In this document: positions 3,603 to 29,149 of the stretch, in pieces
How the letters are laid out: every line of letters starts with the position of its first letter
How positions within the stretch are numbered: position 1 is the first letter of the stretch
DNA from: Ferruginibacter sp.
GTDB lineage: Bacteria; Bacteroidota; Bacteroidia; Chitinophagales; Chitinophagaceae
Length of the DNA stretch: 64,000 nucleotides
Direction: 5' to 3'
Assembly: GCA_013141115.1 (NCBI GenBank)
Contig: JABFRP010000001.1
Span: 1 to 64,000 of the forward strand
Made by a program: the position numbers and the translations under genes
The notes under the pieces: model-generated
The model's input: the letters and a program-made list of their open reading frames with translations, nothing else
Told to the model about the DNA's origin: nothing
Database searches by the model: none

Positions 3603-4199
3603 TTAGCAAAATACCTTTCCATTCTCTATAAGTACGGCTCCTGCTTCATGCATGTGTCGCATGGCCCTGATTACTGTCTCTACCCGAAGACCTGTCATAT
3701 CAGCTATTTGCTGCCGTGTGAGTTTCAGTTGCCTGGATTCAATACAAAAATTCTTATTTTCCTTTTTAAAATAATTCAGTAATGTTTTTATCCGCTCAAC
3801 TGGATCATGGCAGGCAAACGAGTGTAATAGCATAAATCTAAAACGTATCCGTTGAGCCAGTAATTTGCTAAAATTAAAATGAATAGCTACATTTTCTCTA
3901 ATTAGCTGGTTAAAAACAGGCTTGTATAAACGGATTACTACACTGTCTTCGTCAGCAATTGCTGATTCGCCATAAGGTTCATTATCGAATAAAGGCAACT
4001 CGCCAAAACATTCTCCCGGATCGATTAACATTTGAATAAACTCATTCCTATTATCATTAATGTTCAGCCAGTTAACACGGCCGGTTAATAATTGATAATA
4101 GAATGAGCAGTTATCCCCTTCAGAAAAAATTATATTTCCTTTAGGAACTCTTTTATAGGTTGCTCCATATGAAAGTAAAAGATCAATATCAATCATCAT
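3603..4199 (-). CDS. Crp/Fnr-family transcription regulator (Dnr/NnrR-like by context)
   Basis: A 198-residue regulator: N-terminal cyclic-nucleotide-binding-like beta barrel (about 15-110), long dimer helix, and C-terminal winged helix with the recognition region LTRQQIADMTGLRVETVIRAM at about 158-178. The N-terminal cysteine cluster of Fnr is absent, so it is not an O2-sensing Fnr; by context it resembles heme-dependent NO regulators of the Dnr/NnrR group, but the ligand is not visible. Two adjacent ATGs could start it. It sits 217 bp downstream of the Rrf2 gene and seems transcribed alone. Confidence 0.85.
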   Translation of the reverse strand: MMIDIDLLLSYGATYKRVPKGNIIFSEGDNCSFYYQLLTGRVNWLNINDNRNEFIQMLIDPGECFGELPLFDNEPYGESAIADEDSVVIRLYKPVFNQLIRENVAIHFNFSKLLAQRIRFRFMLLHSFACHDPVERIKTLLNYFKKENKNFCIESRQLKLTRQQIADMTGLRVETVIRAMRHMHEAGAVLIENGKVFC

Positions 4200-4416: not shown

Positions 4417-4860
4417 CTATTTACTTTTGTTGTTAATAAACACAGCACCATTCTTTATATCATCTGCCAGATGCTGAATGGTTTTAGTTTCAAATAATTC
4501 TATCAACTGTTCTTTTATTATTTTGTATTTTGAATGCATAGGACAAGGCTTTGTTTCTGAACATTTTTCCAACCCCAACACACATTTGTCCAGCATTTCA
4601 TTTTCTCCCATTGCTTCAAGTATAGCACGAACGGGTAGCTTTCTCATCTTTTCAGTCATATAAAAACCGCCATTGGGCCCACTGACAGACCTGATAATTT
4701 TATTATTCTTTCTAAGTGCCTGTAATATTTTAGCTGTAAATGATGGAGGTGAATCAATGGCTTTGGAGATTTCTCCGATTCCGATTTTGTTATCCTCCGT
4801 CCCTTTTTGTGCAATGAATATCGTTGCCCTTAATGCATATTCTGTTGCTTTTGAAAACAT
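4417..4860 (-). CDS. Rrf2-family Fe-S transcription regulator (NsrR-like), copy 1
   Basis: A 147-residue Rrf2 protein starting at ATG 4860 (MFSKATEYALRATIFIA); the open frame extends upstream but this is the family's normal start. A winged helix occupies about 1-70 and the sensor region has C-x6-C-x5-C (CVLGLEKC...PCPMH), as in Fe-S NO sensors of the NsrR group. It is the last gene of the leftward series norC - norB-like - queD - rrf2 with gaps of about 35 bp, so it may autoregulate that operon through the palindrome at 7163-7194. A paralogue with identical cysteine spacing lies at 24718. Confidence 0.88.
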   Translation of the reverse strand: MFSKATEYALRATIFIAQKGTEDNKIGIGEISKAIDSPPSFTAKILQALRKNNKIIRSVSGPNGGFYMTEKMRKLPVRAILEAMGENEMLDKCVLGLEKCSETKPCPMHSKYKIIKEQLIELFETKTIQHLADDIKNGAVFINNKSK

Positions 4861-4894: not shown

Positions 4895-5341
4895 TTAGTA
4901 ATAGCTAAGTGTTGTGGTATCAATCCATCTTGCAAATGAATCCTTTGTTTCGTATAATTTTAGTTCAACTAGTTTACTACCAGAGGGTAATACCTGCAAT
5001 AGAATTTGTTGAAAATGAATAAGCAGGTTTTCTGCAGTAGGTTCTGCTCCAAGTATAACCAGGTTTTCCTGAGAACTAATGGAGGGATGCTCTGCAATAT
5101 AATCCTGTGACAAAACAAGTTTATGGTCAATCATCCTGATAATAGAGTCAGTTACCAATTGTTTTAATTCTTTAAAATCGATGATAAAGCCCGGTGCCAG
5201 AATATATTCGTCTTTTGTTGTGCATCCGGAAACAGTAACCTCCAATTCATAAGAATGGCCATGTATATTTTTACAGGCTCCTGCATAACCATGAATGGCA
5301 TGTGCCATTTCGAAATAAAAGATTTTAGTGACTAGTAGCAT
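4895..5341 (-). CDS. queD: 6-carboxytetrahydropterin synthase family (QueD/PTPS-like)
   Basis: A 148-residue member of the 6-pyruvoyltetrahydropterin synthase fold. The zinc histidines are in FEMAHAI and NIHGHSY, the catalytic Cys is in GACKNIHGHS, and the C-terminal Glu is in YETKDSFARW. The usual job is turning dihydroneopterin triphosphate into 6-carboxytetrahydropterin for queuosine or other deazapurines. Here it lies between norB-like and an Rrf2 regulator with 35-bp gaps, an odd partner set for queuosine synthesis; no other queuosine gene is visible. A pterin role linked to NO chemistry is possible but unproven. Confidence 0.85.
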   Translation of the reverse strand: MLLVTKIFYFEMAHAIHGYAGACKNIHGHSYELEVTVSGCTTKDEYILAPGFIIDFKELKQLVTDSIIRMIDHKLVLSQDYIAEHPSISSQENLVILGAEPTAENLLIHFQQILLQVLPSGSKLVELKLYETKDSFARWIDTTTLSYY

Positions 5342-5376: not shown

Positions 5377-6765
5377 TTAAGCAGCAGGTGAATAATAATG
5401 GGTTTGTATTTTTCCGGTTGTTTTAAATTTGAAATAACAGAGCACATTATTTTTTAACAAAGGATAGATTATACACAGGAAACCTGTCATCATTACTACC
5501 GCGGAAATAAAAAACACAATAAAAAACGGCCTTAATTGAAGCATCATACTGCTAAAAGGTATTTGTGAAGTGCTCAGCTGCCATTTCGCTTTCACTACGC
5601 CTGCCCCAATTAAACTTATCCAAAAGACAAATAGCGAAATATTAGCTAGCCAATATCCTCTGTTGAATAGTTTCTTATAAGGCTCAAAACTCAGGCAGGT
5701 ATCGTTGAGAATATCAAATGCAATTGCCAGTAGCAGAAAACTGTTAATGCCAATTGTTGCCCCCATTGTATGAGCTACTGTAATATGTGTGCCGTGAGTA
5801 TATAGATTGATGCCAGGAACTGATATTATAATTGCCAGCAATAGTGTTAAGAATATCCAGGCATCAGCGGCAACCAGGAAACGATAAGCTGTTTTGTGAA
5901 AATTCTTTTTTGCAGCGCTGACTGAAGCCCTCCAGTTGAAAATAATTCTCCCAAGGATGAAGAGCTCTGTCATGCTGATTGCATAGCTGATGTGCTTAAT
6001 ATAATTATGAGTGGGCAATGTATAAATATGATGCCCCCAGTTGAACATGAGGTTGAATAACCCAATAAAATACAGTAAAAAAGCCATACTTGAATGGCTG
6101 TAGTTTTTGCTGTTGCTTATTTTGTCCATTAGGAATATGCTGCTGCCGTAGATCAGCATATTCCAGGAACCTACCATAGAGCCATACGATTTCCATTGCA
6201 CTGTCATGTCGTTTACCACATTATTTCTGAAATAAGGGAATATCCATAAATAGGATTCGAGAAAGGTGAATAAAAAGAACAGGATACCTGTAAACCACAT
6301 CCACACATAAACAGGCTGGTTTCTAAATGATCCAGCTGATTTTATAAAATTGATTAAAAACAGGATCCAGCCAGCAACAATGGGTAATGCCAGTATTGGA
6401 TGAAATTCCCAATATTCCCTGCCGCCGAAGATACCGGCACAATAGGATATCAAAATCGTAATAACCGAAAGACTAAAAATAATTAATTGAATTTTTATCA
6501 GTAGTTGTGAGTAGATTTTTTTGCCGGTATGTTGCTGTAGATATGTAAAAACAGCACCTGTCGAATTAAAAATTATCCAAAAAACTACAGACGATACATG
6601 GAGGGGTCTGATTTTTTGGAAGGGTAGATATGATTTTAAAAATCCGGGTATAAGGTATTGAAGTCCACCTGTTACTCCCCAAAACATTCCAGTACCCAGC
6701 AACAAAAGTGCGGCAATTACGAATAGTCTGAATGGTGCTTCCTGTTTACTGTTGGATGGTGCCAT
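5377..6765 (-). CDS. norB: divergent NorB-like heme-copper oxidase subunit I
   Basis: A 462-residue membrane protein with about 12 helices, paired with NorC upstream (20-bp overlap using ATG 6765). Conserved: His56 (RPLHVSS, low-spin heme b), His245/His246 (NWGHHIYTLP, FeB pair) and His332 (VAHTMG, heme b3). Deviations: where NorB or CcoN has a metal His on helix VI (followed in NorB by Glu four residues on), this protein has a Y-G-S-M-V stretch (Tyr194, Val198); and Met334 replaces the second heme-b His of the HxH pair. It is therefore not a standard cNOR; it could be a variant NO reductase with His/Met heme b or an NO-binding relative. Family firm, activity uncertain. Confidence 0.8.
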   Translation of the reverse strand: MAPSNSKQEAPFRLFVIAALLLLGTGMFWGVTGGLQYLIPGFLKSYLPFQKIRPLHVSSVVFWIIFNSTGAVFTYLQQHTGKKIYSQLLIKIQLIIFSLSVITILISYCAGIFGGREYWEFHPILALPIVAGWILFLINFIKSAGSFRNQPVYVWMWFTGILFFLFTFLESYLWIFPYFRNNVVNDMTVQWKSYGSMVGSWNMLIYGSSIFLMDKISNSKNYSHSSMAFLLYFIGLFNLMFNWGHHIYTLPTHNYIKHISYAISMTELFILGRIIFNWRASVSAAKKNFHKTAYRFLVAADAWIFLTLLLAIIISVPGINLYTHGTHITVAHTMGATIGINSFLLLAIAFDILNDTCLSFEPYKKLFNRGYWLANISLFVFWISLIGAGVVKAKWQLSTSQIPFSSMMLQLRPFFIVFFISAVVMMTGFLCIIYPLLKNNVLCYFKFKTTGKIQTHYYSPAA

Positions 6766-7147
6766 TATTATTAATTGTAAAAGTTCTTGGGTCACCCTTT
6801 CCGGATGCAGCTATATCTCGTAAATAGGCAAGTAAGGCGTTCACTTCCTTTCCATTTAAATTAAAGTTGGGCATTGTGGCTGTCCCGTTTTGCAAAAAGG
6901 CTTTGATATAAGCAGGCCCCCTGAGCGAATAGGTATTGGTGAGATCCGGGCCAAGATATCCACCTAAACCATACACCTGGTGACAGGCATTGCAATTATA
7001 CTGTTGCCATACTAACTTCCCCTTACTGGTCTCTTTGGATACAGATTTATTCTTTACTGGCAGCGAAAAATACAGGAAGAAGGAATAGGATAAGAAAGCG
7101 ACTATGAGTAATGCAGCTATAATATTTTTTCTCTTTTCAGTAAACAT
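6746..7147 (-). CDS. norC: NorC-like membrane-anchored cytochrome c
   Basis: A 133-residue monoheme cytochrome c with an N-terminal membrane anchor (about 8-29), heme motif CNACH at residues 52-56, the NorC-type YGLGGYLGPDLTN stretch, and axial Met92 in ATMPNF. NorC passes electrons from periplasmic donors to NorB. ATG 7147 is preferred to the TTG at 7177. A -7 box TATTTTTG lies on this strand at 7166-7159, directly beside the central palindrome. It is divergent from the NOD-like gene, with only 72 bp between the start codons. Confidence 0.85.
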   Translation of the reverse strand: MFTEKRKNIIAALLIVAFLSYSFFLYFSLPVKNKSVSKETSKGKLVWQQYNCNACHQVYGLGGYLGPDLTNTYSLRGPAYIKAFLQNGTATMPNFNLNGKEVNALLAYLRDIAASGKGDPRTFTINNNGTIQQ

Positions 7148-7158
7148 GAATACTTGTT

Positions 7159-7166
7159 CAAAAATA
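7159..7166 (-). promoter_or_regulatory. -7 box of the norC operon
   Basis: On the minus strand the octamer TATTTTTG matches the Bacteroidota -7 consensus TAnnTTTG. It overlaps the left arm of the palindrome and lies 12 bases before norC's ATG, giving a very short leader. Confidence 0.5.
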
Positions 7167-7194
7167 ATTAAGGACAAATTTATCCTTAATTATT
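7163..7194. promoter_or_regulatory. palindromic operator between norC and the NOD-like gene
   Basis: Perfect 12-bp inverted arms (AATAATTAAGGA at 7163-7174 and its complement at 7183-7194) flank an 8-bp spacer. The site lies between, and touches, the -7 boxes of both divergent genes, so one bound protein could silence both. Its half-site matches the palindrome before ric at 9 of 14 positions with the same distance to the dyad axis. An Rrf2 protein is the likely binder; this is inferred. Confidence 0.65.
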
Positions 7195-7201
7195 ATATTT
7201 G
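7194..7201 (+). promoter_or_regulatory. -7 box of the NOD-like operon
   Basis: TATATTTG fits the Bacteroidota -7 consensus TAnnTTTG and starts at the last base of the palindrome. The ATG follows 18 bases later. Confidence 0.5.
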
Positions 7202-7219
7202 CCAACAAATATTCATTGT

Positions 7220-9562
7220 ATGGCGAAAAATAATTTCATCAGCTACCTGCTTAATCCTAAAAACTGGTGGCTTCCTTTACTCGTTATTTTTATAATCAGT
7301 ATTGCAGGGGTAACCATGATTGGAGTACACACATACACTGAAGCTCCACCCATTCCATCTTATGTTTCATCAAAAAATGAAACAGTTTTTTCAAAGGAAG
7401 ATGTGCTGGATGGTCAGGCAGTATTTCAGAAGTATGCACTGATGGAGTATGGCAGTATGTTTGGTGATGGTGCTAACCGGGGGCCTGACTATACTGCAGA
7501 AGCTTTGCATTATGTTTCTCAATACATGGATGATTATTATCAATCGAAATTGAAAGCTGAAGCAAATAGTGATTTGCTTAAAAAAGGGATTATTGAACAG
7601 ATAAAAGTAGAAATTAAAAATAATCATTACAGTAAAGAAAAGAATAGTGTAACACTTTCTGATGCACAGGTTTTTGCAGTGGCAGAACTGGTAAAATATT
7701 ATAATCAAAAGTTTACCAACTCGTCTTCACCCGGAGCATTTAAACCGTCCGGTTACATCACTGATGCAAATGAAATAAAATCGTTAACCGCCTTTTTCTT
7801 TTGGGGTTCATGGGTTTGTGGAGTAGAAAGACCGGGAGAACATTACAGTTATACACATAACTGGCCTTACGACCCTTCAGCGGGGAATACGCCGAGTGCT
7901 GCAATTATTTTGTGGAGCATTATTGGTTCACTGGGATTAATATTTGGATTGGGTATCGTGTTGTATTATCATGGCAAACTGGATAAGCTTGATGATGATG
8001 TTTATACAAAAAAAGCTGAACCTTTTATGACAAGGGGCGATATAGAGAAATTTCAACCAGATGCTATACAAAGGTCTACTTATAAATTCTTTTATGTTGC
8101 CATTGTACTATTTGCTGTGCAGGTTTTAGCAGGTATTTTAACCGTTCATGATTTTGTCGGCTTGATTAATTTCTTTGGATTTAATATTTCCGGCGCATTG
8201 CCAATTACCGTAACAAGAAGCTGGCATGTGCAACTATCTATTTTATGGATATCAGCCTGCTGGATAGGCGCTTCATTTTTTATGATGTCGCTTGTATCAC
8301 CCAACCAATCAAAAAAACAGGTTACACTCATCAATACAATTTTTTGGCTTACGGTAATATTAGTGGCCGGCTCCTTTGCAGGAATGTTGCTTGGACCAAA
8401 AGGTGTTTTCGGAAAGTACTGGTATTGGTTTGGCCACCAGGGATGGGAATATGTAGAGCTTGGAAAACTATGGCAGATTATTTTTGGAGTCATATTTATT
8501 ATTTGGGCAACAACCATATACCGGGGCATTAAACCGGTGATGAAACTAAAGCAGCCATGGGCGTTGCCTAATTGGTTAGTGTATACCACCTTCAGTATAA
8601 TTTTATTATTGATCTCTGGTTTTATTGCCACTCCCAAAACTAACTTTGTGATTGCGGATTTCTGGAGATGGATGGTGGTACACATGTGGGCCGAAGCTTT
8701 CTTTGAAGTATTTACCACAGTATTGATTGGATATTTTATGGTGGTAATGGGATTAGTAAGCAGGCAGGCTGTAATTCGTGTGATCTATTTAGCAACCTTA
8801 TTATTCCTTGGTTCCGGCCTGCTCGGAATCTCCCATAATTTTTACTGGAATGCCAAACCTGTTGGTACAATGGCATTGGGTTCAGTGTTCTCCACTTTGC
8901 AGGTAATCCCTTTAGTACTGCTCACATTAGAAGCATGGCGTTTCAGCAAACTTCCAAAATTGCTGGAAACTAATAACCTGGTAAACGGGGATTTAAATAA
9001 ACGGTTTGGATTTTCAGAAGTGTTCCTTTTTTTGGTGGCTGTTAATTTCTGGAATTTCTTTGGCGCAGGTGTACTCGGTTTCATCATCAATTTACCCATT
9101 GCTAATTATTATGAACACGGAACTTATTTAACCGTCAATCATGGCCATGCTGCATTAATGGGTGTGTATGGTAATCTTGCAGTGGCTGCTGTTTTATTTT
9201 GCTGCCAGTTATTATTTAAGGCTGATTGGTGGAAACCAAAACTGATCAAAACAGTTTTCTGGTCCATCAATATAGGTTTGCTGCTGATGGTATTACTTGA
9301 TTTATTTCCTGCCGGCATTTACCAGTTCAAAACCGTAACAGAGCAGGGATTGTGGTATGCCCGTAGCAGTACATTTATTGAAAGCAATGGGTTTCAAACA
9401 CTCACCTGGATGCGTATCATTGGTGGCTCCATATTTACTGTAGGCGGTGTGATACCGCTGGTTTGGTTTGTAACCAGCAGAAGAAAAGGCTTAAAAAAAG
9501 TTGAGCAACTCAATACAATAAAATCAACAACCAATGAAATCATTTCAACAACCCTGGCTTAA
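7220..9562 (+). CDS. nod: putative nitric oxide dismutase (variant quinol NO reductase family)
   Basis: A 780-residue single-chain qNOR-family protein: an N-terminal helix plus periplasmic domain (about 40-230), then a 12-13-helix oxidase core. Heme ligands His336 (RSWHVQL) and His641/His643 (NHGHAALMG) and FeB His488 with Glu492 (VVHMWAE) are kept. Against Geobacillus qNOR numbering (offset 20 in this region), His560 is Asn540 (GISHNFYW) and Glu581 is Gln561 (FSTLQVIP). At the quinol site the HYxVEG segment reads HDFVG, lacking Glu332, and the RIPGD aspartate (Asp746) is Gly736. These are the changes described for putative NO dismutases, which turn 2 NO into N2 and O2 without external electrons. 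ATG 7220 starts it; it heads an operon running to 12158. Family certain, dismutase activity predicted. Confidence 0.82.
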   Translation: MAKNNFISYLLNPKNWWLPLLVIFIISIAGVTMIGVHTYTEAPPIPSYVSSKNETVFSKEDVLDGQAVFQKYALMEYGSMFGDGANRGPDYTAEALHYVSQYMDDYYQSKLKAEANSDLLKKGIIEQIKVEIKNNHYSKEKNSVTLSDAQVFAVAELVKYYNQKFTNSSSPGAFKPSGYITDANEIKSLTAFFFWGSWVCGVERPGEHYSYTHNWPYDPSAGNTPSAAIILWSIIGSLGLIFGLGIVLYYHGKLDKLDDDVYTKKAEPFMTRGDIEKFQPDAIQRSTYKFFYVAIVLFAVQVLAGILTVHDFVGLINFFGFNISGALPITVTRSWHVQLSILWISACWIGASFFMMSLVSPNQSKKQVTLINTIFWLTVILVAGSFAGMLLGPKGVFGKYWYWFGHQGWEYVELGKLWQIIFGVIFIIWATTIYRGIKPVMKLKQPWALPNWLVYTTFSIILLLISGFIATPKTNFVIADFWRWMVVHMWAEAFFEVFTTVLIGYFMVVMGLVSRQAVIRVIYLATLLFLGSGLLGISHNFYWNAKPVGTMALGSVFSTLQVIPLVLLTLEAWRFSKLPKLLETNNLVNGDLNKRFGFSEVFLFLVAVNFWNFFGAGVLGFIINLPIANYYEHGTYLTVNHGHAALMGVYGNLAVAAVLFCCQLLFKADWWKPKLIKTVFWSINIGLLLMVLLDLFPAGIYQFKTVTEQGLWYARSSTFIESNGFQTLTWMRIIGGSIFTVGGVIPLVWFVTSRRKGLKKVEQLNTIKSTTNEIISTTLA

Positions 9563-9662
9563 TATTAAAATCTATTTCCTCTGGCGATTGCAATTCTTGA
9601 TCGGACGTCTGAAAAACCATCTTTATAAAAAACAGCTTTCATACAATGAAAACAAGAACTGA
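9534..9662 (+). CDS. possible 42-residue basic amphipathic protein after nod
   Basis: An open frame with ATG at 9534 overlaps the last 29 bases of the NOD-like gene and the first 17 of the next gene. Its translation has aromatic and basic helices (LWRLQFLIGRLKNHLYKK) and looks like a membrane-surface peptide. Bridging two genes by overlap at both ends fits a translationally coupled small gene. No homology can be tested here. Confidence 0.4.
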   Translation: MKSFQQPWLNIKIYFLWRLQFLIGRLKNHLYKKQLSYNENKN

Positions 9663-10038
9663 TAATAAACCGCTGGTGTATTCCTGCTCCGGCTGTTCCA
9701 GTGCTGCACAAATGGCAAACTATATTGCTGTTCAGCTTGACAGAATGGATGTAGCAGAAATGTCCTGCATTGCTGGTGTTGGAGGTAACGTTAAGAGTCT
9801 TGTGCGTACAGCAACATCTGGCAGAAAAATTATCGTTATTGATGGTTGTCCGCTGGCATGCTCAAAGGCTTGTCTGAGTAATCATTCGGTAGAGCCTGAT
9901 ATTCACATAGACCTGTCCTGCATGGGTGTTCCAAAAAGGCTGCACGAAGATTTTGATATAAAAGACGCTAATGAAATTTTAACAAAAATTGAATCACTCT
10001 CAAATTGCAGTTTTATAAAATATACCTGTGAAATTTAA
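9646..10038 (+). CDS. DGC-domain putative zinc-binding protein
   Basis: A 130-residue DGC-domain protein. The domain signature is present: N-terminal YSCSGCSSAAQMAN, the middle MSCIAGVGG, and IDGCPLACSKACL at about 65-77 that names the family. The many cysteines suggest a metal or thiol role; the function is unknown in the family. It lies second or third in the NOD-like operon, 84 bp after nod, and is followed 3 bp later by the GNAT gene. Confidence 0.85.
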   Translation: MKTRTDNKPLVYSCSGCSSAAQMANYIAVQLDRMDVAEMSCIAGVGGNVKSLVRTATSGRKIIVIDGCPLACSKACLSNHSVEPDIHIDLSCMGVPKRLHEDFDIKDANEILTKIESLSNCSFIKYTCEI

Positions 10039-11235: not shown

Positions 11236-11718
11236 ATGAAAGTATTAAGCTATAAAACCCCATCTGATTCTGAAACTATCAAAACAGAAGTGGTTTGTCC
11301 TAATGATACAAACCCAATGGGCATATTGCTGGGCGGAAGCTTGGTAGAATGGATGGACATTGCTGCTGCCGTTTGTGCACAAACACATGCCGGAAAAATT
11401 TGTGTTACCGCCTGTATCAATCGTGTTGATTTCACCGCAGCAGCAAAAGTTGGAGATATTATTACCATTTCTGCCAGAATAACCCGTGCCTTTAAAACGT
11501 CACTCGAAATTTTTGTTTTCGCATTCGCAAAAACAGTATTAAATGGGAAAAACTATTTAATCAGTGAAGCGTATTTTACTTTCGTGGCGCTTGATGAAAA
11601 GGGAGAAGTTACGCAGGTAATCGCAGTTAAGCCAGTAACAGCATCTGAAAAGAAATATTACGATGCTGCATTTAAAAGAAAGAAAAAAGATTCACCAATT
11701 AGAAAAAGTAAGGAATAA
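11236..11718 (+). CDS. acyl-CoA thioesterase, hotdog fold
   Basis: A 160-residue single hotdog-fold acyl-CoA hydrolase of the YciA/BACH group. NPMGILLGGSLVEWMDIAAAVCA carries the conserved Asn, the Gly-Gly turn and the catalytic Asp on the hotdog helix; VDFTAAAKVGDIITI is the usual second strand pair. It would release CoA from acyl-CoA in the cytoplasm. Its place in the NOD-like operon has no obvious reason, though the neighbouring GNAT also uses acyl-CoA. Confidence 0.85.
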   Translation: MKVLSYKTPSDSETIKTEVVCPNDTNPMGILLGGSLVEWMDIAAAVCAQTHAGKICVTACINRVDFTAAAKVGDIITISARITRAFKTSLEIFVFAFAKTVLNGKNYLISEAYFTFVALDEKGEVTQVIAVKPVTASEKKYYDAAFKRKKKDSPIRKSKE

Positions 11719-11720
11719 AT

Positions 11721-12158
11721 ATGAGTGTTATGAACGAAATAATCTACCGTTTTATTAAACAACAAACATGCGCCACTATTTGCTGCACAGACGAACAAGG
11801 TATTCCTTATTGTTTCTGTTGCTATTATGTAGTTAAACCTAAGACAGGCTTATTCTATTTCAAATCGTCAGATAACGCATATCATACTTCGCTATTGGCA
11901 ATCAACCCGATTGTCGCCGGTACAATTCTTCCTGATAAACTTAGTAAACTGATAACAAAGGGTATACAGTGGCGAGGGGAATTGCTGGAAGAGCATCACC
12001 CACAAACGAAAGATGCAGATGAAATCTATCACAAAAAAAATCCGTTGGCATTGGTCGTAAAGGGAACAGTATTTACTATTCGTCTGAATATAATAAAGAT
12101 GACAGACAGTCAATTTGGCTTCGGAAAAAAGAATATTTGGAAAAGAGATGAGCAGTGA
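11721..12158 (+). CDS. pyridoxamine-phosphate-oxidase-like flavin-binding protein
   Basis: A 145-residue split-barrel protein of the PNPOx-like group (N-terminal CATICCTDEQGIPYCFCCYYVV, then LFYFKSSDNAYHTSLL, then GIQWRGEL). Members bind FMN, F420 or heme and do varied redox chemistry; the vitamin B6 function needs extra residues not obvious here. A cluster of cysteines at about 14-34 is unusual. It ends the NOD-like operon, 3 bp after the thioesterase. Confidence 0.7.
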   Translation: MSVMNEIIYRFIKQQTCATICCTDEQGIPYCFCCYYVVKPKTGLFYFKSSDNAYHTSLLAINPIVAGTILPDKLSKLITKGIQWRGELLEEHHPQTKDADEIYHKKNPLALVVKGTVFTIRLNIIKMTDSQFGFGKKNIWKRDEQ

Positions 12159-17512: not shown

Positions 17513-18550
17513 TTATTTTAGTTTCTGAAAGACAGCCGGGTTTTCATCTCCTGACACTTTTATTTGTGCCAAAGCTCCCTTATTAAATGCACGGAAAATA
17601 GCATGATCAACCAGGTTATATACACCCGGTACTTCCATTTTCATTTCTACCATCGTGGATCCTCCGGCAGGAATTAGCGTAGTCTGCACATTCCTGCTAA
17701 TTTCAGAGCCGGATTCCATATATACTTTATTAAAGATCTCACCGATTACATGAAATGAGGATACAAGGTTCGGACCGCCGTTTCCTACATATAGCCTCAC
17801 CGTCTCTCCAACGTTTGCAGTCAATGCGTTTTTGCCGGTGGTAGAGCGCACTCGTCCATTAAACAATACATAATCTGGATGTTCAGCAATAGCCTTATCC
17901 ATATCAAAATCCTGTAAGCCTGGTGCTTCAAATTTCCCTTTTGTATAAAAGTCTCCCTGCATGATATAATATTCCTTATCAACTTTTGCCATTCCGCTTT
18001 GTGGCTCCACCAATATTAGTCCATACATGCCATTTGCAATATGCATGCCTACAGGACCAGTGGCGCAATGATAAACAAATAGGCCGGGATTCAACGCCCT
18101 AAATTGAAAATGGGATGATTGTCCCGGAGCGGTTGCAGTAGCATCTGCACCACCACCTGGGCCAGTCACAGCATGAAGGTCGATATTATGTGATAGTTTA
18201 CTGTCGGGCATATTATGTAATGTAAAATCAACCAGGTCTCCCTGTCTTACCCGGATGAATTTACCGGGCACATGTCCGCCAAATGTCCAGAAAGTATATT
18301 CTGTACTGTCCGAAATTTTCATCACTTTCTCTATTACATCTAATTGTACTATTACCTTTTTAGGTGAAGTATAATTTAGTTGTTTGGGGACAGCGGGTGC
18401 GTCGGTCAACTCTGCTGTGACGTTTCCTGTTAACACAGTATCTAATTTGTTTTCCACATCGGCATTGCCAGAATTGTTGTTGCAGGATAAAACAATTGAT
18501 ATAGAAGATAATAAAATCAAAAGTGAGAATCCTTGTTTGAAGTGTTTCAT
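17513..18550 (-). CDS. nirK: copper-containing nitrite reductase
   Basis: A 345-residue two-cupredoxin nitrite reductase that reduces nitrite to NO outside the inner membrane. A lipoprotein signal (LSC, Cys23) anchors it. Type 1 copper ligands are His121, Cys162, His170 and Met175; type 2 copper ligands are His126, His161 and His316; the catalytic Asp124 and His267 are present. All sites are intact and the length is normal, with no extra cytochrome domain. It heads nirK - nirV - SCO and is divergent from the ric operon. It is the NO source for the NOD-like and NOR-like proteins here. Confidence 0.95.
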
Positions 18551-19076: not shown

Positions 19077-20036
19077 ATGCAAACAACAGCCGAAAATATC
19101 CTCAACGTAACCTTACTGGAACCGAGACAAAAACATCCCACCATTTTTATACGTTTTGATGAACTGGCAGAAGGGGAAAGTTTAACCATTCACAATGACC
19201 ATGATCCTAAGCCATTGTATTATCAATTGCTGGGTGAAAGAGGCAACATCTTTATCTGGGAATACCAGGAGCAAGGACCGGAATGGTGGATAGTGAAAAT
19301 AACAAAACGGATAACAGGGGAAAATGATGAAACCCTGGGTCAAATTGCAGCAAAAGATTTGCGTAAAGCAGAGGTATTTAAAAAATACGGATTGGACTTT
19401 TGTTGCGGTGGAAAGAAAACAGTGAAAGAGGCATGTGCAGAAAAAGGATTGGATGTTACCAAAGTTGAACAGGAGCTACAACAGGCGGATAAGATGCCAT
19501 CCTCCCGTCCGATCCCTTATGGCGATTGGACCCTGGATTTTCTGGCAGATTATATCATTAACACCCATCACAGTTATGTAAGAAAAACCTTACCGGATAT
19601 TACGGCCTATGCAGCTAAAGTAATGCAGGTGCATGGTAAACATCATCCCGAATTAATACGCATCAGTCAATTGGTTAGTGAAGTAAATGCAGAGTTAACG
19701 GGCCACCTGGTTAAGGAAGAAAAGATATTGTTCCCTTATATTAAAGCATTGGTTGCGGCAAAAAATCATACGCAACCATTACAGGCCGCTCATTTCGGAT
19801 CTGTGCAAAGCCCAATTAATATGATGGAGATGGAGCATGAACTGGTTGGTAAAAACCTGGATGAGATCAGGCAGCTCGCCAACAATTATTTATTGCCGGA
19901 AGATGCCTGTGCCAGTTACAGTTTACTGTACAGGATGCTGGATGAATTTGAAGAAGACCTGCATTTGCATATCCATCTTGAAAACAATATTCTGTTTCCA
20001 AAGGCACTGGAAATTGAAAAGCAATTAAACAACTAA
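19077..20036 (+). CDS. ric: iron-sulfur cluster repair protein RIC (ScdA/YtfE/DnrN)
   Basis: A 319-residue di-iron protein that repairs Fe-S clusters after NO damage. An N-terminal DUF2249 domain (about 10-80) is fused to the ScdA N-terminal domain with Cys109-Cys110 (LDFCCGGKKTV), then a hemerythrin-like domain with His/Glu iron ligands (TGHLVKEEKILFP, MEMEHELVG, LHLHIHLENNILFP). Cytoplasmic. It is the first gene of a tight eight-gene operon to 25149 and has the palindromic operator directly upstream. The DUF2249 fusion matches another DUF2249 protein in the same operon. Confidence 0.93.
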   Translation: MQTTAENILNVTLLEPRQKHPTIFIRFDELAEGESLTIHNDHDPKPLYYQLLGERGNIFIWEYQEQGPEWWIVKITKRITGENDETLGQIAAKDLRKAEVFKKYGLDFCCGGKKTVKEACAEKGLDVTKVEQELQQADKMPSSRPIPYGDWTLDFLADYIINTHHSYVRKTLPDITAYAAKVMQVHGKHHPELIRISQLVSEVNAELTGHLVKEEKILFPYIKALVAAKNHTQPLQAAHFGSVQSPINMMEMEHELVGKNLDEIRQLANNYLLPEDACASYSLLYRMLDEFEEDLHLHIHLENNILFPKALEIEKQLNN

Positions 20037-20040
20037 GCAA

Positions 20041-20532
20041 ATGAAAAACCAAGCTCCCATAAAAAGACATCAGGCTATTGTCTCATTTTCCAAAGACCAT
20101 CATTTTGGATTACTGCTGATCTGGAAAATAAGACAAGGCCTGAATAAAGCTGTCAATCCGGAACGGATCAGCAATTATGTAACTTTCTTTTTTAAAGAAG
20201 ACCTTGAAAAACATTTTAAAGAAGAAGAGCAATTACTTTTCAGTAAACTACCGGCTGATGATGTACTAAGGAAACAGGCAGAAGGAGATCACCAGGCAAT
20301 ATACAAGCTGGTAGCTGCTATTGAAAAAAAGAAGGACGATGCAGTTCTGCTCAATCAACTGGCGGATGAACTGGAAAAACACATCCGTTTTGAAGAACGG
20401 GAACTGTTCAATCATCTTCAGGATAATATTAAAGCAGATGACTTAGAAGCAATAGCAAATCGTTTTCCCAACAGTAGCAAAGCAATTGATGAAAAATGGG
20501 AAGATGTTTTTTGGGAAATTAAAAAACAATAA
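20041..20532 (+). CDS. hemerythrin-like domain protein
   Basis: A 163-residue all-helical hemerythrin-like protein with di-iron ligand motifs DHHFGL, LEKHFKEEEQLL, DHQAIYKL and LEKHIRFEERELF. It may bind NO or O2 or assist RIC. It starts 4 bp after ric and its stop is one base before the NDH-2 ATG. Confidence 0.88.
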   Translation: MKNQAPIKRHQAIVSFSKDHHFGLLLIWKIRQGLNKAVNPERISNYVTFFFKEDLEKHFKEEEQLLFSKLPADDVLRKQAEGDHQAIYKLVAAIEKKKDDAVLLNQLADELEKHIRFEERELFNHLQDNIKADDLEAIANRFPNSSKAIDEKWEDVFWEIKKQ

Positions 20533-23098: not shown

Positions 23099-24391
23099 AT
23101 GTTTTCAACAACCGGAAATACCGAAGCAACAAAGACAACTTCCTGGAAAGTGGTATTGCCTTTTTACGGCTATGCCGCTATCGCTTTTTTAATTGCCACT
23201 ATTCTTTTATTGTTTTCTGCAAGTGATATCACCAGTCATTATTTTCTTCCACATACATTGGCTATTATACATATTATGGCACTTGGCTGGGGTACCATGA
23301 TGATACTAGGGGCCAGCCATCAATTGGTGCCAGTATTGATTGAAGGTAAATTGTACAGCAATAAACTGGCCTATGCCTCCTTTACATTTGCTGCGATTGG
23401 TATCCCCTTATTAGTTAATGGTTTTTATGTTTTTAATATGGGCTTACATACCCAGTGTGGCGGCATATTAATCATCCTATCCGTCATTGCTTATCTGATT
23501 AACCTTGCTGCAAGTATGGTAAAAAGCAAGCAGGAAAATGTACATGCTTTTTTTATTTTTACCGCTGCATTGTGGTTACTGGCAACTGCAATTGTTGGAC
23601 TGTTGCTACTCTACAACTTTACTGAACCGTTACTGCCTAAAGGTTCACTGAATTATCTTCCGGTGCATGCACATATTGGTATTGTTGGCTGGTTTTTATT
23701 GCTGGTAATGGGAGTAGGCTCCCGGTTGATACCCTTGTTTCTTATTTCCAAGTACAACAATACCCGGCAACTCTGGTGGATTTATGGATTAATAAACGGA
23801 GGCCTTTTGTCTTTCGTTTATATCTTTTTATATACCGATAGCAAATCGCTGCTGAGTATCCCATTATTGGCAGTGGCAGCCTCCATTGTATTGTTTGGTG
23901 ATTTTTGCTTCAAGGCTTACCAGCAGCGTATTCGTAAAAAAGTTGATGAGCAAATGAAAGTATCTTTACTATCAGTGCTGATGATGTTATTGCCGGTCAT
24001 TTTTTTGGTTATTATTATTACACTTTTAATACTGTCACCAAAAGAAAATGTCAGCCTCATAATAACTTATGGCTTTATCATTTTTTTTGGATGGATTACT
24101 GCCATCATTTTAGGCATGACATTTAAAACCTTACCTTTTATTGTTTGGAATAAAGTGTATCATCACTTAGCCGGAAAAGGAAAGACACCCAACCCCAAAG
24201 ATTTGTTTAGTAAAAAAGTTTTTAAATGGATGAGCGTCGCTTACATCCTGGGGTTTGTAATGTTTACCGCAGGCATTTTGTTTTATTCCGCCATTGTGTT
24301 ACAAATTGCTGCCGCATTATTATTACTCACTTCCTTATTGTATAACTGGAATGTAATAAAATTGTTAATGCATAAACCTGTTTCTTTATGA
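23099..24391 (+). CDS. NnrS-like polytopic membrane protein
   Basis: A 430-residue protein with about 12 transmembrane helices and oxidase-like histidines: IIHIMALGWGT, GASHQLVPV and LPVHAHIGIVGWF. This pattern is that of NnrS-like or cytochrome-oxidase-like proteins of NO-response operons, thought to bind heme and lower NO toxicity. The His set is not a full heme-copper site. It starts one base after the DUF2249 gene and overlaps the SufT-like gene by 4 bp. Confidence 0.75.
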   Translation: MFSTTGNTEATKTTSWKVVLPFYGYAAIAFLIATILLLFSASDITSHYFLPHTLAIIHIMALGWGTMMILGASHQLVPVLIEGKLYSNKLAYASFTFAAIGIPLLVNGFYVFNMGLHTQCGGILIILSVIAYLINLAASMVKSKQENVHAFFIFTAALWLLATAIVGLLLLYNFTEPLLPKGSLNYLPVHAHIGIVGWFLLLVMGVGSRLIPLFLISKYNNTRQLWWIYGLINGGLLSFVYIFLYTDSKSLLSIPLLAVAASIVLFGDFCFKAYQQRIRKKVDEQMKVSLLSVLMMLLPVIFLVIIITLLILSPKENVSLIITYGFIIFFGWITAIILGMTFKTLPFIVWNKVYHHLAGKGKTPNPKDLFSKKVFKWMSVAYILGFVMFTAGILFYSAIVLQIAAALLLLTSLLYNWNVIKLLMHKPVSL

Positions 24392-24717: not shown

Positions 24718-25149
24718 ATGCTTAGTCTTACTTGTAAAACAGCCATTAAAGCGGTAATATATCTTGCTTCTAAATTTGAATCTGGAGAAAAGGCCGGTAT
24801 TAAAGAAATAGCTGAATTTATTGATGCCAGTGAACATACGGTTGGAAAAATGCTGCAAACATTGGTTAAAGATGAAGTAATTAATAGTGCCAAAGGCCCA
24901 ACCGGCGGGTTTTTTATTACAGTAAAACAAAAGAACCAGCCAATCATAAATATAATAGATACCATTGATGGAAAAGAGGTTTTTGATCAATGTGGGCTAG
25001 GATTAAGTAAATGCTCTGCCACTCATCCCTGTCCCATCCATAACGATTATAAAATCATCAGGGATAAATTTAAAGCAATGTGCCAGCAAAAGAAGGTAAC
25101 TGATTTATGTGAAACTGTAAACGAGGGGTTAGCTTACCTGATAGGTTGA
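24718..25149 (+). CDS. Rrf2-family Fe-S transcription regulator (NsrR-like), copy 2
   Basis: A 143-residue Rrf2 regulator with winged helix (about 1-70) and C-x6-C-x5-C (CGLGLSKC...PCPIH), the same spacing as the paralogue at 4417-4860. It ends the ric operon, immediately after the SufT-like gene, and likely controls it through the palindrome at 19001-19028. Loss of its Fe-S cluster to NO would relieve repression, by analogy with NsrR. Confidence 0.88.
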   Translation: MLSLTCKTAIKAVIYLASKFESGEKAGIKEIAEFIDASEHTVGKMLQTLVKDEVINSAKGPTGGFFITVKQKNQPIINIIDTIDGKEVFDQCGLGLSKCSATHPCPIHNDYKIIRDKFKAMCQQKKVTDLCETVNEGLAYLIG

Positions 25150-27486: not shown

Positions 27487-28191
27487 ATGAAAATAGCTGA
27501 TTTGTATATCCGTGTAAGTACGGATGAGCAGGCAGATAAGGGGTATTCCCAACGGAGTCAGGAAGAACTCTTGCGTAAATATTGTAGCATCAACAATCTT
27601 TCGGTTCGCTATGTGATTTTTGAAGATCATTCTGCCAAAACTTTTAACCGTCCAGAATGGAAAAAATATTTGTCAGTTTTGAAGAGAAATAAAAATCAGG
27701 CTGATTTGGTATTATTTCTTAAATGGGATCGTTTCAGCCGTAATGCGGGTGATGCTTATCAAATGATCAATACGCTTCGTAAATTGGGCATAGAGCCGCA
27801 AGCAATTGAACAACCCTTAGACTTGTCTATACCTGAGAATAAAATGATGTTGGCTTTTTATTTGGCAGCACCGGAAGTAGAAAATGATAGGAGAGCGCTA
27901 AATGTTATTCACGGAATGCGTAGAGCAAAGAAGGAAGGTCGGTTTATGGGAAAAGCACCCATTGGTTACATGAACAGGACTGATGAATCGGGAAGAAAAT
28001 ATATCGCTCCAAAAGAACCGCAGGCGGATATTTTGCGGTGGTCATTTAACAAAATTGCGGAAGGAGTTTTTAATACGGAACAAATTTATAAAATGGCGAA
28101 GCAAAAGGGATTTGGCAGCACAAAAAGTCCATTTTGGTTTGCCATGCGAAATCCTGTGTACTGCGGTAAAATATTTATTCCAAAAATATAA
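27487..28191 (+). pseudogene. large serine recombinase, N-terminal part (frameshifted)
   Basis: Resolvase catalytic domain with N-terminal YIRVSTDEQADKGYS carrying the nucleophile Ser, then LKWDRFSRNAGDAY, and the start of the recombinase domain (MRRAKKEGRFMGKAPIGY). The frame stops after FIPKI at 28191. Removing one A from the run 28182-28186 gives FIPKYKDEESRFIKG and continues into the C-terminal part. It would integrate or excise the island. Confidence 0.85.
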
Positions 28192-29149
28192 GGATGAAGA
28201 AAGCCGTTTTATAAAAGGTTCACATGAGCCCATTATTTCAGATGAATTGTATTATCAGGTGCAGGATATATTGGATGGAAGAAAGAGGAATTACAGGCTT
28301 AAAGCAGTGTCTAATGAATCGCTTCCTTTACGTGGCTTTCTTCTTTGTCCCAAGTGCCATAAATTATTAACGGGGAGTGCCTCCAGAGGACACACTAAAT
28401 ATTACTCTTACTATCACTGTACAGATGGGTGTTCTTGCCGTTACAGAGCTGATAATGTGAATCAGCTATTTGTTTACGAGATCAAAAAGTATATTCCTAA
28501 ATCAGAAATCATTGACTTGTTCAAACTACTTATTGCCGAAGAATTGAGTGATCAAACCAATAACATCCAGGACGGCAGTAAACAGTTGAGGTTGCAGATA
28601 AAAGAATTACAAGAGAAAATAGCCTATATCAGAGAGCTGCTTTCATCCAAACAAATTGAACCGGCCGACTTTCGGGAAATGAAATCTGAATACAGTGCCA
28701 AACTTGAAAGGTTAGAAGCTAAATTAAATGCCAGTAATGATGATCAGGTGGATATAAAAGGGCTGCTGGATAAGGGAGTAAATAACCTGCTAAAACTGGA
28801 CTATTTATACGAAACAGCTGATACTGAGAAAAAGCGGGATATAATTAGTTCGATGTATCCTGAAAAACTAACATTTGATGGATTTACACTTCGAACTACC
28901 CGGATCAATGAGGTCATTCGAATAATATACAGTGTGGGTGAGGGTTTCAGCGAAAATAAAAACAGGACAAATGACAGTAAAACCAATTTGTCCTGTAATG
29001 TTGGGTTACTAGGATTCGAACCTAGAAAGACAGAATCAAAATCTGTTGTGTTACCATTACACCATAACCCAATCGTGTTCCCTGATGCTTTTCAGAATTG
29101 GGAGTGCAAAAATAAGGTTTCAACCCTTTTAATCCAAAAGGAATTTTAG
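28192..29149 (+). pseudogene. large serine recombinase, C-terminal part (runs into tRNA-Gln)
   Basis: Continuation of the recombinase: zinc-ribbon domain (LLCPKCHKLLTGSAS...YHCTDGCSCRYR) and coiled coil (LQIKELQEKIAYIRELLSSK). The frame then reads through the complement of tRNA-Gln (GLLGFEPRKTESKSVVLPLH is antisense tRNA), so the last 50 or so residues are not ordinary protein. Recombinase genes that end inside a tRNA gene mark the attachment site on that tRNA. Confidence 0.8.
29001..29071 (-). tRNA. tRNA-Gln (anticodon TTG)
   Basis: A 71-nt cloverleaf on the minus strand: acceptor TGGGTTA/TAACCCA, D arm GTGT/ACAC, anticodon arm ACAGA-TTTTGAT-TCTGT with anticodon TTG, T arm CTAGG-TTCGAAT-CCTAG, discriminator A, CCA not encoded. 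Its 3' end faces the recombinase and island, as for tRNA-targeting elements. Confidence 0.92.

Follow-up and report, generated by a model that had tools for sequence, protein, structure and literature searches.

The window analyzed here, the whole stretch of 64,000 nucleotides from Ferruginibacter sp., contains an island of nitrogen-oxide genes around nod, which encodes a protein of the quinol-dependent NO reductase (qNOR) family (Table 1). A NorC-like cytochrome and a NorB-like heme-copper protein are encoded divergently from it, with a candidate operator in between.

Table 1. Features of the window around nod, with positions in the window
Feature	Position	Strand	Remarks
Crp/Fnr-type regulator	3603..4199	-	
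Rrf2-family (NsrR/IscR-like) regulator	4417..4860	-	Three Cys, C-x6-C-x5-C; paralogue on contig C2
6-Pyruvoyl tetrahydropterin synthase (PTPS)/QueD-like protein	4895..5341	-	Below cut-offs; paralogue on C2
NorB-like heme-copper protein	5377..6765	-	Overlaps the NorC-like gene
NorC-like c-type cytochrome	6746..7147	-	CNACH; candidate axial Met by eye; divergent from nod
32-bp inverted repeat, candidate operator	7163..7194		Core AAGGACAAATTTATCCTT at 7170-7187
nod, qNOR-family protein	7220..9562	+	Nod signature H488, E492, H539, N540, Q561, G314
DGC-domain protein	9646..10038	+	Downstream of nod; homologue in 16/138 loci tried
YciA-like hotdog thioesterase	11236..11718	+	Below cut-off; paralogue beside the second operator on C2
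YhbP-family protein	11721..12158	+	Below cut-off; paralogue in the C2 cassette
NirK, copper nitrite reductase	17513..18550	-	Probable NO source; TIGR02376; ligand motifs by eye
RIC/YtfE-type iron-sulfur repair protein	19077..20036	+	With DUF2249 domain
Second Rrf2-family regulator	24718..25149	+	61 bits, below the cut-off of 73.3

The nod ORF is intact and encodes 780 amino acids from the ATG at 7220, or 787 from an alternative upstream TTG at 7199. The protein is a qNOR-like single chain comprised of a NorB cytochrome c-like domain (PF22085, 162.7 bits) and a COX1 domain (PF00115, 176.8 bits), both above the Pfam cut-offs. A phmmer comparison with the solved qNORs places the Geobacillus enzyme 3AYF (E 4e-160) before the Alcaligenes enzyme 6QQ5 (E 9e-133). 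By sequence, the window Nod shares with these enzymes the fold family, the heme ligands, the FeB residues His508 and Glu512 (Geobacillus numbering; His488 and Glu492 in the window Nod), and His559 (His539). It differs from them in the catalytic part by the replacement of His560 with Asn540 and of Glu581 with Gln561 and at the quinol site by Gly314 and Gly736 in place of Glu332 and Asp746; the quinol-site residues His328 and Phe336 are retained as His310 and Phe318. The alignment with 3AYF thereby confirms the ligands, the substitutions, and the loss of Glu332 and Asp746 named in the initial annotation, as well as its constant offset of 20 residues in the catalytic part; the offset is 18 at the quinol site. 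In a protein-similarity set of 121 sequences (the window and the best 120 of 2,291 matches, 80 to 100% identical), four sequences, one of them the window itself, are 100% identical to the window Nod. His488, Glu492, His539, Asn540, Gln561, and Gly314 occur in 121/121 of this set, which indicates that these residues are not a product of chance.

To widen the sample, a contig database in which each of 84,980 species is represented by one genome was scanned with a DNA pattern that specifies H559-N560 followed at a fixed distance by Q581. The scan gave at least 114 loci; among those listed, 104 have a Nod match and 10 are chance matches. The latter, L089 from a record titled Methylomirabilis and nine others, were dropped because the Nod match is absent. 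Eighty-seven pattern loci and the window form a set of 88 near-full Nod rows, which was compared with nine qNORs. As the search pattern fixes H559, N560, and Q581 in 87 of these rows, only the remaining positions, which are free, count as a test there; the protein-similarity matches are free of this bias. His508 and Glu512 are invariant across 88/88 Nods, as is His559 (by construction in 87). The position of Asp746 is occupied by Gly or Ala in 87 of the 88 Nods, with one gap, and by Asp in 9/9 qNORs, all of which also have His560 and Glu581. His328 is kept in 38/88 and Phe336 in 35/88 Nods, the window Nod included in both counts, so that the loss of either residue is no rule of the Nod family.

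Phylogenetic analysis used 44 hand-picked rows: the window, 26 of the 87 loci and 3 further Nods (both chosen for spread), and 14 qNORs. In this tree, built by a quick search with the diagnostic columns retained and with the NC10 and HdN1 sequences absent from the rows, one branch with an SH-aLRT of 100 parts 30 Nods from 14 qNORs. Placement inside the ordinary qNORs had been set beforehand as the outcome that speaks against the assignment; the window Nod falls outside them. Five qNORs from its own family, Chitinophagaceae (L155-L159), have the His-His pair and Glu581 and group with the qNORs, and the Muricauda protein L094 shares its tree position with the window Nod among the Nods. By record title, the Nod rows come from Bacteroidota, Pseudomonadota, Acidobacteriota, Planctomycetota, Myxococcota, Bdellovibrionota, Chlorobiota, and Melainabacteria; L119 forms a long branch. 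Eight plasmid qNOR regions were retrieved; L123, split over two frames, was excluded from the rows and the tree. Among the retrieved loci, a Ferruginibacter MAG (L053) has the named protein most similar to the window Nod (97.8%). The strains known by name in which nod was detected include Flavisolibacter ginsengisoli DSM 18119 (L026), Cecembia lonarensis LW9 (L112), Indibacter alkaliphilus LW1 (L100), and Algoriphagus aquaeductus T4 (L027). A Deltaproteobacteria MAG (L003) shows two adjacent Nod-type ORFs on one contig, the second of which aligns over 526 amino acids only. Signature residues and tree position bear out the family assignment of the initial annotation: judged by sequence, the window gene is intact and belongs to the putative NO dismutase family.

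The Nod family was defined on these substitutions by Ettwig et al. (2012; PMC3413370), in agreement with the likeness to putative NO dismutases claimed in the initial annotation, and Muricauda ruestringensis was already included. The Nods of Methylomirabilis, HdN1, and Muricauda share with the window Nod the qNOR architecture, the retained His508, Glu512, and His559, the changes of His560 to Asn and Glu581 to Gln, and a spoiled quinol site, the likeness to the NC10 and HdN1 proteins being taken from published descriptions, as their sequences are not in the alignment. Unlike that family as described, the window Nod retains His328 and Phe336. Ruff et al. (2023; PMC10264387) found nod in groundwater MAGs of Sediminibacterium and Algoriphagus, members of the same phylum; a Sediminibacterium MAG protein (P0036) is 93% identical to the window Nod. 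The portions of that paper drawn on here do not mention an operator, an Rrf2 regulator, a NorBC-like pair, or a nosZ linkage. A survey in mSystems (2026; PMC13386854) reports nod in 66 of 1,362 MAGs, with Bacteroidota second after Pseudomonadota, nsrR at the nod loci of FEN-1191, and mentions NsrR for Cecembia calidifontis. The presence of nod in Bacteroidota (Muricauda, Sediminibacterium, and Algoriphagus) is therefore already known, in print since 2012 and for Sediminibacterium since 2023, and the link of an NsrR-type regulator with nod is as such not new.

The start codons of nod and the NorC-like gene lie 72 bp apart. With the cytochrome cNOR (NorBC, 3O0R), the pair at 5377-7147 shares the combination of a NorC-like cytochrome and a NorB-like subunit, the overlapping genes, and five ligands or residues: H60, H258, H259, E280, and H347 in cNOR numbering. 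It differs from 3O0R in that His207 is replaced by Gly, Glu211 is gapped, Glu215 is replaced by Asn, and His349 is replaced by Met. These changes are found in 30/30 aligned relatives (L160-L189), for which reason the protein is not classed as a cNOR; the FeB residues His207 and Glu211 and the low-spin heme b ligand His349 are present in 6/6 cNORs. An AlphaFold2 model of the NorB-like protein (pLDDT 83) resembles CcoN and NorB most closely (TM ∼0.8). Across 244 Chitinophagaceae genomes, taken as a fixed sample, the closest NorB-like clade (at least 72% identity) occurs in six genomes and lies divergently beside nod in 6/6. NorB-like proteins overall occur in 8 of the 20 nod genomes (beside nod in 6) and likewise in 37 genomes that lack nod, which led to the rejection of the protein as a strict partner of nod. 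In 10 of the 45 NorB-like genomes, a less closely related member shares a contig with nosZ, at a distance of 4 to 12 kb. This distribution points to a wider denitrification gene. nosZ is also enriched with it (37/45 genomes versus 92/199 others), and three genomes carry NorB-like, canonical cNOR, and NirK genes on one contig. The NorB-like protein represents a conserved, denitrification-linked heme-copper family and, going by its ligands, is no cNOR. A literature search of limited reach did not find this family in Bacteroidota, and it may already be in print; as far as searched, the divergent NorC/NorB-like pair with altered ligands flanking nod is new.

The inverted repeat ends 25 bp before the nod ATG, with its core 50 to 33 bp before it. 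The core was searched as AAGGAYAAANTTRTCCTT, a query derived from the first sites seen, in upstream regions from 130 loci, 24 of which were unusable and 9 of which were merged as duplicates. With at most two mismatches, it is present upstream of Nods with 70% identity or more in 17 of 21 unique regions (window included), 16 times at positions -48 to -51. It is found in 0/8 regions at 60 to 70% Nod identity, four of which show three to four mismatches at -40 to -56, and in 0/68 below 60%, giving 0/76 below 70% overall. The background rate is 44 matches in 2,800 random 150-bp pieces of such loci. Exact matches to the core occur twice in the genome: besides the site in front of nod, there is one at C2:64189, flanked by a second Rrf2-PTPS pair and a thioesterase gene. 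Genomic sites with two mismatches are noise, as allowing up to two gives 7 and 9 matches where the reversed control gives 8 and 9. The second cassette (C2, ∼62,700-68,200; L194 and L201) has the order Rrf2-PTPS-thioesterase, with a YhbP gene further on, and its products are paralogues of those encoded at 4417-4860 (71% identity), 4895-5341 (61%), 11236-11718 (70%), and 11721-12158 (52%).

The regulator at 4417-4860 belongs to the Rrf2 family (TIGR00738, 79.5 bits; cut-off 73.3). It resembles the NsrR/IscR branch in its superfamily score, its three cysteines, and a palindrome before the neighboring gene, and differs from it in scoring below the IscR equivalog cut-off. We know of no NsrR palindrome that matches the one in the window. 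The regulator likely binds this candidate operator, and its three cysteines fit a putative Fe-S cluster. In a survey of 25 window genes across 138 loci, among them the 10 chance loci and some duplicated ones, the commonest neighbor of nod is an Rrf2 homologue (38 loci); the gene at 20530 has no valid count in this survey. New as far as the search reached is the palindrome before nod, common to 17/21 close relatives, with its second exact copy in a paralogous Rrf2 cassette.

Three further genes of the window, all on the plus strand, are recorded here. The 601-residue protein encoded at 12280-14085 matches no Pfam or NCBIfam model and has homologues in 17/138 loci, including the Deltaproteobacteria MAG L003. 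A membrane protein with a weak COX1 match below the cut-off (22 bits) is encoded at 23099-24391, which we take, by eye, to resemble NnrS. A serine-recombinase-like protein at 27487-29149 is apparently split across two overlapping frames (by eye).

The genome measures 5.44 Mb and is 96.9% complete. It encodes four PF00115 proteins: an aa3 type (by eye), a ccoNO fusion of the cbb3 type (1,260 bits; cut-off 1,080), Nod, and the NorB-like protein; a canonical NOR was not found among these four. The NirK called in the initial annotation scores 363 bits with TIGR02376 (cut-off 296.3), and a search of the rest of the genome for nosZ, as proposed there, returned a clade II, Sec-type NosZ (935 bits; cut-off 625). 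The single PF00384 protein (998 amino acids scanned) is nearest to the formate dehydrogenase alpha subunit and the assimilatory nitrate reductase NasC without reaching either cut-off, and it includes an FAD domain resembling that of NirB; a second PF00384 protein, and hence a separate NarG or NapA, was not seen in the genome. A genome with NirK, clade II NosZ, and a PF00115 set made up of aa3, cbb3, Nod, and an odd NorB-like protein is new within the reach of the search. It also sets the window apart from Methylomirabilis: nod is accompanied here by nirK and an Rrf2 regulator in a genome with nosZ, whereas Methylomirabilis has no identifiable NosZ.

Within the 244-genome sample, in which not every first-look candidate was scored in some genomes, Nod is present in 20, 19 of them with Asn and Gln verified and one a fragment without that region. 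qNOR occurs in 5 genomes, cNOR in 7 (E 1e-60), NosZ in 129 (E 1e-100; 125 above the cut-off), a NirK match in 38 (E 1e-40), and NorB-like in 45 (at least 38% identity). nosZ is present in 19/20 nod genomes versus 110/224 without nod (Fisher p 3e-5) and, by genus, in 14/14 nod genera versus 50/87 (p 0.0017); NirK is present in 7/20 versus 31/224 (p 0.02). As the sampled genomes are related, these p-values overstate the strength of the associations. cNOR (E 1e-60) or qNOR (E 1e-50) matches are found in 0/20 nod genomes versus 12/224 others, which is not significant (p 0.61), and 8 of the 12 have NosZ. A Chitinophagaceae MAG (X1_MetaBAT.39, L076) carries a nod 93% identical to that of the window and a canonical cNOR (HLWVEGVWEL) on the same 8-kb piece, showing that the two can coexist; strict exclusion of nod and NOR was accordingly rejected. 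Among the 32 genomes with nirK and nosZ, 5 carry a NOR, 7 carry Nod, and 15 lack NOR, Nod, and NorB-like alike; nod thus occurs in 7 of the 27 that lack a cNOR or qNOR match. Thirteen of the 20 nod genomes have no NirK match at E 1e-40, and a NirK homologue adjoins nod in 0/138 loci tried (up to 8 kb each), so the supply of NO by NirK is what we infer for this genome. A NirS search with PF02239 gave 0/244 family genomes and likewise 0 matches in control genomes, so that the zero for the family carries no information. In the order sample, Nod occurs in 7/149 genomes, and it is absent from four other genomes of the window's genus. The presence of nosZ in 19/20 nod genomes, with cNOR or qNOR seen in none, is new as far as could be searched. 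The link fits poorly with, and argues against, a pathway that simply skips N2O. Of the conversion of nitrite to O2 and N2 through Nod, as interpreted in the initial annotation, the family and NirK thus stand, and a simple bypass of N2O is less likely.

We give about an even chance to the proposal that the window Nod, as a family member, dismutates NO, probably supplied by NirK, to N2 and O2 at the inner membrane and that it is probably induced by NO via the NsrR-like Rrf2 repressor. Two NO molecules would bind at heme b3 and at the metal ligated by His, Asn, and Glu. The lost Glu581, Glu332, and Asp746 would stop electron and proton supply, and N-N bond formation followed by O2 release would then take place, with water not being formed. 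The cbb3 oxidase would take up the O2, the Rrf2 protein on the palindrome would release nod upon NO, and NosZ would serve external N2O or N2O from a side reaction. This proposal is favored by the signature (121/121 in the window and the best 120 of 2,291 matches, 19/20 family-sample Nods, and 88 Nods versus 9 qNORs), the tree split, the NirK and both O2 reductases of the genome, and the palindrome. It is also favored by Methylomirabilis, which formed labeled O2 from 18O-nitrite and N2 without significant N2O or an identifiable NosZ (PMC3413370). On the other side stand the nosZ link, the retained His328 and Phe336, the missing NirK matches in 13/20 nod genomes and beside nod, and the statement in PMC13386854 that Nod proteins were never isolated and characterised; O2 formation is something we infer for the whole family.

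Given that nosZ accompanies nod and that a canonical NOR was not found, a protein that is Nod by family and NO reductase by function stays in play as a tentative possibility; it would form N2O, and the cell's own NosZ would complete the NirK-Nod-NosZ chain. Electrons would be donated by a c-type cytochrome, for instance the divergently encoded NorC-like protein, or enter through a weak quinol site, in line with the retained His328, the pair beside nod in 6/6 genomes with the closest NorB-like clade, and nod in 7/27 NOR-less nirK and nosZ genomes. The loss of Glu581, Glu332, and Asp746, the N2-forming Methylomirabilis with its Nod, and the nonsignificant nod/NOR separation with its counterexample in L076 speak against such a function. 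Its extended form, in which the Chitinophagaceae Nod removes NO in this chain under the NsrR-like repressor and works with the NorC/NorB-like complex, with no bypass of N2O, is rather doubtful. A role for Nod outside energy metabolism, as a membrane heme protein that detoxifies or binds NO and is induced by NO through the Rrf2 regulator, is unlikely. The Rrf2 homologues in 38/138 loci, the operator-like palindrome, and the RIC repair protein in the island would suit this role; NO-responsive control, however, is equally usual for respiratory NO enzymes, and the retention of H508, E512, and H559 in 88/88 Nods (H559 by construction in 87) indicates a metal center under selection. An ordinary quinol-dependent NO reductase has next to no probability and is refuted as a placement: plasmid records match with ∼32 to 37% identity over 88 to 97% of the Nod query (best 40 of 318 matching records), but the His-His pair, Glu581, and Asp746 are all missing, and the qNORs of Chitinophagaceae fall elsewhere in the tree.

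A bacterium with NirK, Nod, and NosZ, in which a canonical NOR was not found, provides a test case for the disputed formation of O2. Among Bacteroidota genomes with denitrification genes, those with nir and nosZ and without nor make up 9% according to PMC12569097, whose main text does not contain the word dismutase; the family sample has 27 such genomes, 7 of them with nod. If Nod makes N2O in such denitrifiers, genome-based predictions of oxygenic denitrification would need revision; if it makes O2, this would happen in common denitrifiers.
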